From Candidatus Synechococcus calcipolaris G9 (lineage in GTDB: Bacteria; Cyanobacteriota; Cyanobacteriia; Thermosynechococcales; Thermosynechococcaceae), in NCBI RefSeq assembly GCF_029582805.1, contig NZ_JAKKUT010000002.1:124001-188000 (forward strand): a stretch of DNA of 64,000 nucleotides, read 5' to 3'. Made by a program: the position numbers and the translations under genes. Each line of letters opens with the position of its first letter. Position 1 is the first letter of the stretch. This document shows, piece by piece, positions 30,962 through 35,543 of this stretch. A model generated the notes under the pieces. The model was not told the DNA's origin. It was given only the letters and a program-made list of their open reading frames with translations, and ran no database searches.

Positions 30962-32179
30962 ATGCCCTCCCCTAGTCAGATTAGTGATGCGGTGCGCCAA
31001 CTCTATAACACCTACCCCTTTCCGCCGGAACCACTGCTGGACGAGCCACCCCCTGGCTACAATTGGCGATGGTCCTGGCCCAGTGCCTATGGCTTTTGCA
31101 CCGGAGCCTATCCGCCCCGTTTGGATGTGAACATCTTGGATGCGGGGTGTGGTACAGGGGTGGGAACCGAATACCTGGCCCACCTGAATCCAGAGGCCCG
31201 GATTACGGCAATCGATCTGAGCGAAGGGGCCCTAGGGGTTGCCCAGGAGCGGTGTCGGCGATCGCGGGCCGAGAATGTCACCTTTCACCATCTCAGCCTC
31301 ACCGAGGTGGCCCAGTTGGGCCAGTCCTTTGATTTCATTAATTCTGTCGGTGTGCTGCACCATCTCCCCGATCCAGAGGAGGGTATCCGTTCCCTGGCCC
31401 AGGTTCTTGCCCCCGGTGGCTTGATTCATATTTTTGTCTATGGGGAATTGGGCCGCTGGGAAATTAAGTTGATGCAGCAGGCGATCGCCCTACTCCAAAA
31501 TCAGAGAGATCAGCTCCGGGATTATCGCCAGGGTGTGGCCACGGGCCGGGCTCTCTTTGATCTTTTGCCTGCCACGAACCGGATTAAACAGCGGGATCAG
31601 GAACGCTGGGGCCTGGAAAATCAACGGGATGAATGTTTTGCCGATATGTATGTCCATCCCCAGGAAATTGATTACACCATTCCCAGTTTATTTCAGTTGA
31701 TTGCCGCCTCAGGCTTGGAGTTTGTCGGCTTTTCTAACCCCAAGGTGTGGCAACTGGAGCGACTCCTGGCAAAAAATCCCCAGCTTTTAGCCCAGGCCCA
31801 AACCCTAAGCCAAGTTGACCAATATCGCCTGATTGAACTCCTGGATCCGGATACGATCACCCACTACGAGTTTTTCCTGGCCCGCCCACCCCGCCCCCAA
31901 TACCACTGGCAGGAGGATACCGATTTGTTGGCGGCCCGGCCCCTTCGCCACCCCTGTATTGATGGTTGGCCCGCCGCCTGTGTATTTAATGCCCAGTACG
32001 AGGTGATCCACTTGGGCGATCGCGATCAGGCGTTTCTAAAAATGGCCACCGGCGAACATACCGTAGCAGACATCCTTGGGCAGTTAAATGAAAAACCTGG
32101 CCATCCCCCCAGTTCCCTGGATTTAACCGCTGTGCGATCGCTCTTGAACCAGGAACTCATTCTCCTGAAACCCCATTAA
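30962..32179 (+). CDS. Class I SAM-dependent methyltransferase, two-part protein
   Basis: A 405-residue protein. The N-terminal half is a methyltransferase: YNTYPFPPEPLLDEPP precedes motif I at NILDAGCGTGVGTEYLA (about residues 57-73), then ITAIDLSEGALGVAQ and FDFINSVGVLHHLPDPEEG. The C-terminal half (from about 300) carries a different region, with YEVIHLGDRDQAFLKMATGE near the end and no motif known to me. Such long cyanobacterial proteins of this pattern are common and of unknown substrate. It starts 14 bases after proS, with AGGAGAAG just upstream. Confidence 0.85.
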   Translation: MPSPSQISDAVRQLYNTYPFPPEPLLDEPPPGYNWRWSWPSAYGFCTGAYPPRLDVNILDAGCGTGVGTEYLAHLNPEARITAIDLSEGALGVAQERCRRSRAENVTFHHLSLTEVAQLGQSFDFINSVGVLHHLPDPEEGIRSLAQVLAPGGLIHIFVYGELGRWEIKLMQQAIALLQNQRDQLRDYRQGVATGRALFDLLPATNRIKQRDQERWGLENQRDECFADMYVHPQEIDYTIPSLFQLIAASGLEFVGFSNPKVWQLERLLAKNPQLLAQAQTLSQVDQYRLIELLDPDTITHYEFFLARPPRPQYHWQEDTDLLAARPLRHPCIDGWPAACVFNAQYEVIHLGDRDQAFLKMATGEHTVADILGQLNEKPGHPPSSLDLTAVRSLLNQELILLKPH

Positions 32180-32230
32180 TTGAAGCCTCTGGGGTACAAT
32201 TGTCTGGAAAACTTGGCCCCAGTAGGAGTC

Positions 32231-34258
32231 GTGGAAAAAGGTACCTTAGTTGAATTCCGGCTGCAAAATCAGCGACGTTTAGGCGTATTCGATCGCCCTG
32301 AAGGGAAAAAGCATTGGATTCTCATTGATCAAAATCAGCAATCCCACACCGTCCATCCCCGCCAAGTAACCTACGTGGTTAACGGCAACCCTTACCGGCC
32401 CCAAGACATTGCCGCCTTTATCGCAGACGTGACTCCTCTGGTGGAGCCAGACAGCCTAGAAATTGCCTGGGAAATTATTGCAGAGGAACGCCGCCCCATT
32501 ACCGCCACGGATCTGGCTCTAGTTCTTTTCAGCGAAACCTTACCCAACTATTGCTATGCTGCCCATTGCCTATTAGCGGAAGATAAACTTTATTTCAAAC
32601 AAAAGGGGGAGGTCTACGAAGCCCGCTCCCCCGCCCAAGTCACCGAACTCAAGCACCAGAGCGAAAAAGAACGCCTGCGTCAAGAGGAAGAAGCGGCCTT
32701 TCAGGAGCGAATCACCCAGGCCCTCCAGGGCGAAAACGTAGACTGGGCCCCCAGCGATCGCCGCCGCCTGGATCTTCTAGAACGCTATGCAGCGGCCCTA
32801 GAGTTAACCCCCCAACTTTCTGGAGCCAATGACCTTCTTCAACAGTTAGGCCGTCCCTCCGGTCAAGGTTCAGCTTTTCAACTTCTGGTAGATTTGCAAC
32901 TATGGAGTGAACACGAGAATCTCTTTCTTCGCCGTAGTCAAATTCAAACCAGTTTTCCGCAAAAGGTTGTAGACGTGGCCCAACAATGCCTCCTGAATCC
33001 ACCCCCCGATTTTGATGCGGCCCATCGCCGTGATCTGACCCATTTGAAGGTCTACACCATTGATGACGAGGGCACCCAAGAAATTGATGATGGCTTGAGT
33101 ATTGAATCCTTGCCCGAAGGCCGGGAACGCCTGTGGATCCATATTGCCGATCCCAGTCGTTGGCTCGATCCAGGGGATATTCTGGATCAAGAAGCCCGCC
33201 GCCGCGCCACCACAGTTTATTTACCCACGGGCATGATTCCCATGTTTCCCTCCGAGTTAGCCACGGGCCCAATGAGTTTGGTGGAAGGGGCCACCTGCTG
33301 CGCCCTTAGTTTTGGCGTAATCCTAGAGGCCAACGGCGCAGTAAGCGAGTACACCATTTGCCCAAGTTTGATCCGTCCCACCTATCGCCTCAGCTACGAA
33401 GACGTGGACATGATGCTGGAATTAGCCGTACAAGCGGAAGCGGAATTGTTGGCGATCGCCCAATGGGGCCAAATTCGCAACCAATGGCGACACGGCCAGG
33501 GAGCGATCCAGATCAATATTCCCGAAGCCAGTATCAAAGTCAATGGTGATCAGGTGCAGATATTGCCCCTCAATGATTCTCCCGCCCGGGAACTGGTAGC
33601 GGAAATGATGATTTTAACCGGGGAAGTCGCTGCCCGCTTTGGTACCGATCACGGTGTTCCCCTGCCCTTCCGTTCCCAATCCCAGCCCGAACTGCCCCCG
33701 GAGCAGGAGTTAATGCTATTACCGCCGGGACTGGTGAGGGATTCGGCCATTCGTCGCTGTATGCCCCGCAGTGAGATGGGAACCAATCCAACCCCCCACG
33801 CCAGCTTAGGATTAGCAGCCTACTGCCAAGTCACCTCCCCCATCCGCCGCTATAGTGATCTATTGGCCCACATGCAGATTAAGGCCCATTTGCGCGGTGA
33901 AGCCCCCCCCTTTACCCCCCAAGACCTAGGGGAAATTCTGCTGGGTCTGGTGGCATCAGTGCAGGAGTCCATTTTAGTCGAGCGGCAAACCACTCGGTAT
34001 TGGTGCCTGGAATTCCTCCGCCGTCACCGTAACGAAGTATGGCGGGGTATTCTTCTTCGCTGGTTGCGCCCCGATGATGCCCTAGGCTTAATCCTGTTAG
34101 AAGATCTGGGGGTAGAATTAGCCATGCGATTTCAACGAACCCCGATATTGGGGGAATCCCTGGAGGTGCGTGTCAGCCGTGTGGATCCCCGTACCGATCA
34201 AATTTGGCTGGAAGAAGTCCGGGAAACTCCCGCCACCGCCGAAGCGATCTCACCCTGA
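32231..34258 (+). CDS. RNase II/R family exoribonuclease
   Basis: A 675-residue 3'-5' exoribonuclease of the RNB family, acting in RNA decay and rRNA maturation. The catalytic Asp-rich block is TIDDEGTQEIDDGLSIE (about residues 274-290), followed by IHIADPSRWLDPG, FRSQSQPE and the hallmark YCQVTSPIRRYSDLLAH near residue 530. An S1-like C-terminal part may be short. I chose GTG at 32231 (MEKGTLVEF), because cyanobacterial homologues as I remember them begin VEKGTLVEF. The frame extends to a TTG at 32180, right after the previous stop. The ribosome binding site AGGAG is close to the GTG, so the start is uncertain. Confidence 0.9.
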   Translation: MEKGTLVEFRLQNQRRLGVFDRPEGKKHWILIDQNQQSHTVHPRQVTYVVNGNPYRPQDIAAFIADVTPLVEPDSLEIAWEIIAEERRPITATDLALVLFSETLPNYCYAAHCLLAEDKLYFKQKGEVYEARSPAQVTELKHQSEKERLRQEEEAAFQERITQALQGENVDWAPSDRRRLDLLERYAAALELTPQLSGANDLLQQLGRPSGQGSAFQLLVDLQLWSEHENLFLRRSQIQTSFPQKVVDVAQQCLLNPPPDFDAAHRRDLTHLKVYTIDDEGTQEIDDGLSIESLPEGRERLWIHIADPSRWLDPGDILDQEARRRATTVYLPTGMIPMFPSELATGPMSLVEGATCCALSFGVILEANGAVSEYTICPSLIRPTYRLSYEDVDMMLELAVQAEAELLAIAQWGQIRNQWRHGQGAIQINIPEASIKVNGDQVQILPLNDSPARELVAEMMILTGEVAARFGTDHGVPLPFRSQSQPELPPEQELMLLPPGLVRDSAIRRCMPRSEMGTNPTPHASLGLAAYCQVTSPIRRYSDLLAHMQIKAHLRGEAPPFTPQDLGEILLGLVASVQESILVERQTTRYWCLEFLRRHRNEVWRGILLRWLRPDDALGLILLEDLGVELAMRFQRTPILGESLEVRVSRVDPRTDQIWLEEVRETPATAEAISP

Positions 34259-34294
34259 ATGCTTTACTATAAACTTCCACAGAATAATTAATTC

Positions 34295-34390
34295 ATGAGT
34301 CCTAAGAATCTCGATAGCATTGACCTGGCAACCTATATTGAGCATACCCTACTGGATCCCCTAGCCACGGAAGTAAGTGGCGATGGTTAG
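34295..34390 (+). pseudogene. deoC: Truncated start of a deoC (deoxyribose-phosphate aldolase) gene
   Basis: ATG 34295 starts a frame with DSIDLATYIEHTLLDP and LATE, matching the N terminus of deoxyribose-phosphate aldolase. Homology ends around 34370 and the frame stops at TAG 34388-34390 inside the start of xisH. The catalytic part of the enzyme is absent and is not found further downstream in the window. The simplest reading is a gene cut by insertion of the xisH-xisI segment. Confidence 0.72.
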
Positions 34391-34817
34391 GGATTTATTT
34401 CATAATCAAGTTAAGACAGCCTTGATCAAAGATGGCTGGACAATCACCCACGATCCTTACTCCGTCAAAATCAGTGAGGCAATTAAAGTGCAGATAGACT
34501 TGGGTGCGGAGAGTACTATTGCAGCCCAGCGGGATCAAGAGAAAATTGCTGTTGAAATTAAAAGCTTTATTTCTGACTCAGATATCAGCGAATTCCATGG
34601 TGCCCTAGGGCAATATCTCAACTATCTACAGGCATTAGAACTCAAGGATCCACAACGAATTTTATACTTAGCAATCCCAATAGATACCTACACCGAATTT
34701 TTTCAAATTCCATTCATTCAGTCATCGATCAAAAAATATCAAATCAACCTAATTGTTTATAATCCTATCCAAGAGGAGATTCAGCAGTGGATAAAATTCA
34801 GCACTACCGAAAATTGA
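34383..34817 (+). CDS. xisH: XisH family protein (fdxN element excision controlling factor)
   Basis: XisH is one of the proteins reported to control excision of the Anabaena fdxN element, and homologues are widespread in cyanobacteria without heterocysts. The 144-residue protein has LIKDGWTITHDPYSV at the start, then VQIDLGAE and KIAVEIKSFISDS, with the Asp39 and Glu58-x-Lys60 arrangement of the PD-(D/E)XK nuclease fold, and LGQYLNYLQAL. ATG 34383 is used; an in-frame GTG at 34377 is possible. It overlaps xisI by 31 bases and the broken deoC by eight. A nuclease-like role in a mobile or defence-like cassette is an inference. Confidence 0.9.
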   Translation: MVRDLFHNQVKTALIKDGWTITHDPYSVKISEAIKVQIDLGAESTIAAQRDQEKIAVEIKSFISDSDISEFHGALGQYLNYLQALELKDPQRILYLAIPIDTYTEFFQIPFIQSSIKKYQINLIVYNPIQEEIQQWIKFSTTEN

Positions 34818-35122
34818 TTCGTGACATTTTAACCGAGCAAGCCCATCCCTATAACCATTCTCAGGAAGTTGAGCCAAGTATTATCTGTGATGCAGAAAAT
34901 GATCATTACCAACTCGCTTACATTGGCTGGGAAGATCAAAGGCGTATTTTTGGTATTATTTTACACTTCGATATTAAAGACGGCAAAATCTGGATTCAAT
35001 ATAATGGCACAGAACTGTCCATCGCTCAGATGTTAATAGAAAAAGGCGTATCTGCTACCGATATTGTCATCGGTTTTCACTCTCCCTTTAAGCGTCAATT
35101 TGATGGTTATGCCGTAGCTTAG
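34787..35122 (+). CDS. xisI: XisI family protein
   Basis: The partner of XisH. The 111-residue protein carries the family blocks MDKIQHYRKLIRDILTEQA, YQLAYIGWEDQRRIFGII and HFDIKDGKIWIQYNGTE, then VIGFHSPFKRQFDGYAVA at the end. It begins at GTG 34787 inside the end of xisH, so the two are translated together. As with other solitary xisHI pairs, no fdxN element or XisF-type recombinase is visible, so its role here is unknown. Confidence 0.93.
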   Translation: MDKIQHYRKLIRDILTEQAHPYNHSQEVEPSIICDAENDHYQLAYIGWEDQRRIFGIILHFDIKDGKIWIQYNGTELSIAQMLIEKGVSATDIVIGFHSPFKRQFDGYAVA

Positions 35123-35214: not shown

Positions 35215-35448
35215 ATGAGTTCATTTCCAGATTTACTGAGTCGGATTACCCAAACTCCTGGACAATGTGGAGACAGACCTTGTATTCGTGGTATGCGGAT
35301 TTGAGTAAGCGATATTTTAGAAATGTTGGCAGAGAATGTATCTGTGTCTGAGATATTAGAAGACTTCCCTGATCTCAATGCTGCTGACATTCAAGCCTGC
35401 CTTTTATTCGCAGCTCGACGGACTGATTTCACTCGGCTTACGGCATGA
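35215..35448 (+). pseudogene. DUF433 antitoxin gene with an internal stop
   Basis: From ATG 35215 the frame gives MSSFPDLLSRITQTPGQCGD and RPCIRGMRI, then TGA at 35302-35304, then continues in the same frame as VSDILEMLAENVSVSEIL and further to TGA at 35446-35448. This is the DUF433 (VapB-like) pattern GxPxIRGMRIxVxDILxxLAxG. The family normally has Arg after MRI, so CGA to TGA is the likely change. It has AGGAGAAA upstream. It overlaps the broken DUF5615 gene as in intact pairs. Confidence 0.83.
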
Positions 35449-35543
35449 AACTGTGGATTGATGCTCAATTGCCACCCGCCCTCGCCAATTGGCTTGCGGT
35501 CACATTCTCACTAGGACAACGTGCCATGCTCCTCAACCGCTAA
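35445..35543 (+). pseudogene. Truncated DUF5615 (PIN-like) toxin gene
   Basis: The frame starts at ATG 35445 inside the DUF433 stop (ATGA) and reads MKLWIDAQLPPALANWLAVT, the usual start of DUF5615 proteins, with its first PIN-type Asp6. It ends after 32 codons at TAA 35541-35543, and the last ten residues do not look like the family. Full members have about 110 residues, so most of the toxin is lost. Confidence 0.78.

Follow-up and report, generated by a model that had tools for sequence, protein, structure and literature searches.

Gene content and organization of the locus

The window, a 64,000-base stretch (G000:C2:124001-188000) of a 3.3-Mb cyanobacterial genome, contains an overlapping xisH-xisI gene pair that stands, together with a copy of the start of deoC, between rnb and a flotillin gene (Table 1). 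The ORF that runs into xisH starts MSPKNLDSIDLATYIEHTLLDPLATE, and its first 26 residues are those with which the product of the genome's full-length deoC begins. The original prediction, in noting that a deoC start is joined directly to xisH-xisI, was accurate on this point: all 26 residues agree, and xisHI follows directly behind.

Table 1. Features from rnb to the end of xisI, in window coordinates
Feature	Coordinates	Strand	Remarks
rnb	32180-34258	+	upstream neighbour; stop codon 124 bases before the xisH start, same strand
Copy of the deoC leader	34265-34294	+	24/30 bases identical to the full-deoC leader; TACTAT (-10-like) box at 34265-34270
Duplicated deoC codons 1-26	34295-34373	+	26/26 residues as in full deoC; all five base differences synonymous
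31-codon leader-like ORF (deoC start plus junction sequence)	34295-34390	+	its last 8 bases lie within the start of xisH (34383-34390)
xisH (144 aa)	34383-34817	+	PD-(D/E)XK nuclease fold family; PF08814; homologous to 2inb and 2okf
xisI (111 aa)	34787-35122	+	GTG start; PF08869; homologous to 3d7q and 2nlv; 31-base overlap with xisH

The neighbourhood of rnb is rearranged in the source genome. Here, a methyltransferase gene precedes rnb (window 30962-34258), and the commonest rnb neighbour in the other cyanobacteria scanned is ribosomal protein S18 (10 proteins).

A partial duplicate of deoC

Positions 34265-34373 of the window match full deoC at 98 of 109 bases (E 6e-36), including 30 bases of leader, and a nucleotide match of this quality is not due to chance. 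A Pfam scan of the deoC' peptide, which is very short, gave no match. The complete deoC lies ~1.17 Mb from the window piece (G000:C2:1327420-1328109), encodes 230 aa with no internal stops, and is followed by recO and then an MFS gene, an order that many relatives share. What the window carries is an additional, incomplete copy, and the resident deoC is not interrupted; the earlier claim that a deoC gene had been cut at this site is not borne out, given the uninterrupted 230-aa gene beside recO. A simple assembly error does not explain the duplicate, as 11 of the 109 bases distinguish the copies. Of the 39 genomes searched, only the source genome showed a further, partial match to deoC. The possibility that the leader is a repeated element was rejected, as the genome holds just two places that match it.

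It had also been proposed that xisHI inserted into a deoC that once stood behind the RNase gene, and that relatives with an intact deoC in this position, as well as the missing 3' part of the gene, should be sought. No deoC adjoins rnb (within 1.5 kb) in 29 relatives, and none lies near it in 80 named cyanobacterial loci with flanks of up to 10 kb per side; an ancestral rnb-deoC order was rejected on these grounds. The interval from xisH to the flotillin gene contains nothing that matches the 3' part of deoC (codons 27-230), and the sole complete deoC is the uninterrupted one elsewhere. With rnb lacking a nearby deoC in relatives and the 3' half absent, the proposed insertion is not supported. 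Of the pair of observations that the original prediction had named together as speaking against it, a full deoC elsewhere was indeed found, whereas the 96-base frame, which was to have lacked homology, is homologous to deoC.

The differences between the copies are informative as to the origin of the piece. In the coding part they occupy five of 78 positions, all of them third positions and all synonymous, and if changes were random, five of five would be synonymous with a P of 0.0007 to 0.004, a range that is set by the transition bias assumed and that is based on just five differences in 78 bases. The leaders differ at six of 30 positions. Moreover, the MSPKNLDS protein start is seen only in the source genome among those compared. 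The synonymous-only differences, together with this lineage-peculiar start, suggest divergence as part of a working gene, and the piece probably diverged within a functional deoC of its own lineage, either as a full duplicate since lost or as the gene of a related strain.

Junctions and the search for a mobile unit

At the left junction, the two deoC copies begin to resemble each other only a few bases from the rnb stop codon; CCTGA is present at both places. At the right junction, the match stops at GGAAG (34369-34373), nine bases 5' of the xisH ATG; past this break the native deoC continues CGGCGATCGCC, which contains a HIP1 site, while the window continues TAAGTGGCGATGG. GGCGAT is common to both sequences near the break, occurring in the HIP1 site of deoC and at the start of xisH, and could represent microhomology or a chance resemblance, as the hexamer has a frequency of 2.4 per kb over both strands.

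Neither a target-site duplication nor a terminal inverted repeat was found at the junctions, where repeats occur only at chance level, and no direct repeats of the kind that border the fdxN element were found at the two junctions. No transposase ORF was found between rnb and the flotillin gene. The locus thus lacks the terminal inverted repeats, target-site duplication and transposase of its own by which an IS- or cassette-like mobile unit would be recognized. Carriage by a virus was considered and rejected: phage records contain no XisH, and viral contigs contain neither a confirmed case of it nor the exact deoC'-xisH junction. The earlier suggestion that xisHI is itself the cargo of a small mobile unit therefore survives only in the loose sense that the pair is accessory and often plasmid-borne, as target-site duplication, inverted repeat and local recombinase are all lacking.

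XisH and XisI proteins and their relation to excision systems

Both proteins are ordinary members of their families, with solved structures among their homologues (2inb and 2okf for XisH, 3d7q and 2nlv for XisI). XisH matches PF08814 over its full length (185.6 bits, E 5.7e-55) and XisI likewise matches PF08869 (147.3 bits, E 2.6e-43), each against a cut-off of 25 bits, and the two are encoded by adjacent genes that overlap by 31 bases. The E-x-K pattern that had been pointed out in XisH is present: D39, E58 and K60 (D...E-x-K) are common to all 15 aligned XisH proteins and to 2inb. With its PD-(D/E)XK residues intact, XisH is a putative nuclease. PADLOC returned no match for either XisH or XisI.

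In Nostoc/Anabaena PCC 7120, xisH and xisI act with XisF in excision of the fdxN element (PMC4874684; PMC2674450), and both protein families occur in the window in the order found in that element. The window differs in having no adjacent xisF, no element, and no gene for excision to restore. The genome's sole match to the recombinase family in question, that of xisF-type large serine recombinases, lies ~0.98 Mb away (C2:1136280), and this family also occurs in S. elongatus. Neither an xisF within the same element nor a host gene split with short direct repeats at its borders, both hallmarks of fdxN-type elements, was found here. Because there is no split gene, there are no element borders, and the recombinase-family match is so distant, the locus does not qualify as an excision element; the proteins are nonetheless members of the XisH and XisI families.

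Free-standing pairs have been described previously. Genomes with xisHI that lack xisF have been published (PMC4853749), and the function of xisHI in strains without heterocysts has been called undisclosed (PMC2674450). In Lyngbya majuscula CCAP 1446/4, xisH-xisI is located upstream of hoxW and has a mapped transcription start 33 bases 5' of xisH (PMC2674450). This pair resembles that of the window in being free-standing and in residing in a host without heterocysts, but it has its own mapped start, and no captured gene start has been reported for it (PMC2674450).

Distribution and genomic context of xisHI

XisH is present in 170 of 291 sampled cyanobacterial genomes of the class, often in several copies per genome, and was found on 38 plasmid records. 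The closest relative of the window pair (79% DNA identity, 84% and 86% protein identity) is found in a genome of the same cyanobacterial family (G008) and has the same 31-base overlap, but there it occupies another genomic site, between the type III mod and res genes with a PIN-domain gene behind, and has no deoC piece. Comparable arrangements occur elsewhere. For example, the gene order in a further genome (G206) is mod-xisHI-Uma2-res, and on a Euhalothece plasmid xisHI lies between hsdM and a Uma2 gene, followed by hsdS and hsdR. A plasmid of Picosynechococcus PCC 7002 carries xisHI between DUF1156 and helicase genes, among HigB-, VapC- and MazE-type genes. Of further plasmid copies, that of Pseudanabaena is found beside DUF4007 and a phosphorothioation-associated gene, that of Nostoc adjoins CRISPR genes, and that of Planktothrix adjoins VapC.

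In the surroundings of 30 further xisHI copies, recurrent neighbours were Uma2 (6), type I specificity subunits (3), HepT (3) and HsdR (2), and with rnb of relatives as the single control gene, the same scan returned none of these among families with at least two members. The number of PADLOC models hit was 332 near xisHI versus 11 in the rnb control, a ratio that is no measure of enrichment, as the models are highly redundant. Seven loci from unrelated cyanobacteria (L217, L224, L259, L260, L262, L264 and L265) have xisHI within or beside restriction-modification, phosphorothioation, CRISPR or toxin-antitoxin groups.

Damaged copies also occur: one locus has a stop inside xisH (L219), and another has a large gap between its xisH and xisI matches (L234). 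Judging from these, xisHI seems to be a pair that genomes readily gain and lose.

Probable origin and possible expression of the chimeric unit

The reading that we favour, with reasonable though not strong confidence, is that a chimeric accessory unit lies between rnb and the flotillin gene, composed of a ~110-base deoC 5' end and an intact xisH-xisI; most likely, an accessory gene pair became joined to a deoC start acquired by chance. The source would have been a deoC that was functional while it diverged, whether a full duplicate since lost or a related strain's deoC that recombined in with xisHI, and illegitimate recombination could have produced the join, perhaps at GGCGAT, which the HIP1 site of deoC and the start of xisH have in common. 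XisH would adopt a nuclease fold and have XisI for a partner; the two would make up an independent accessory module, such as occurs among restriction and toxin-antitoxin genes, with no element to be excised at this site.

That xisHI instead works here as an excision system as in Anabaena, with a serine recombinase removing a DNA element, is highly improbable. Its appeal is that excision of the fdxN element requires a pair of the same protein families (PMC4874684), yet the split gene and element borders are absent, the only recombinase-family match is remote and belongs to a family that S. elongatus has too, and other genomes are known to carry XisHI but no XisF (PMC4853749). It is also conceivable that the target of an xisHI insertion was an additional deoC copy, since lost, or a donor strain's own deoC. 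The explicit version of this, in which a second complete deoC stood behind rnb, received xisHI, and later lost its 3' part by deletion, would account for the abrupt join at codon 26 and, through long service of a functional second copy, for differences that are synonymous only. We consider it unlikely, as codons 27-230 have left no trace between xisH and the flotillin gene, the junctions lack a target-site duplication and terminal repeat, and no relative has two deoC genes or a deoC near rnb.

As regards expression, several features of the deoC piece suggest that it could now drive transcription of xisH and supply it with a coupled translation start: its leader frame runs into xisH, GGAAG precedes the ATG, and both deoC copies retain the TACTAT box. 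The -10-like box, together with the leader ORF that stops at the xisH start, may now aid transcription and translation of xisHI. A consensus promoter/terminator scan, uninformative in that its hits were at shuffle level, reported no promoter in the leader, the TACTAT box included. This null result is compatible with the deoC piece being a neutral scar, and with xisHI being transcribed by read-through from rnb, whose stop codon is just 124 bases away on the same strand, or not at all. Such an outcome is a real but lesser possibility, against which stand the box retained in both copies, a leader ORF that stops exactly at the xisH start, and the position of GGAAG nine bases before the ATG.

A broader proposal would have XisH-XisI be mainly a toxin-antitoxin-like module of nuclease and partner that belongs to defence islands and spreads singly, and that is expressed here by way of an acquired housekeeping promoter, leader and start codon. 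The genes of the pair are small and overlap, their distribution is patchy, and restriction or toxin-antitoxin neighbours were seen in several loci, with one control gene for comparison; these observations might point to such a module. As a whole, this scheme is quite doubtful; the idea that xisHI belongs to defence islands instead of acting in excision is best treated as a lead, not a result.

The locus itself is a modest curiosity, and an apparent gene disruption has been corrected. More generally, annotations routinely label xisH and xisI as excision factors of an element, yet there is no element for the window copy, or for many others, to excise. That several cyanobacteria have xisHI within restriction-modification operons or amid toxin-antitoxin genes suggests another, testable role, and the captured deoC start offers one clean case of how xisHI might gain expression at a new site.

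A neighbouring gene remnant

Beside xisHI, the remains of a DUF433-DUF5615 gene pair are found at window positions 35215-35543. An in-frame TGA (35302-35304) replaces one arginine codon, and the second gene of the pair is truncated, with 32 of ~116 codons left. Intact DUF433-DUF5615 pairs occur in relatives (L004-L006), with ~75% DNA identity.
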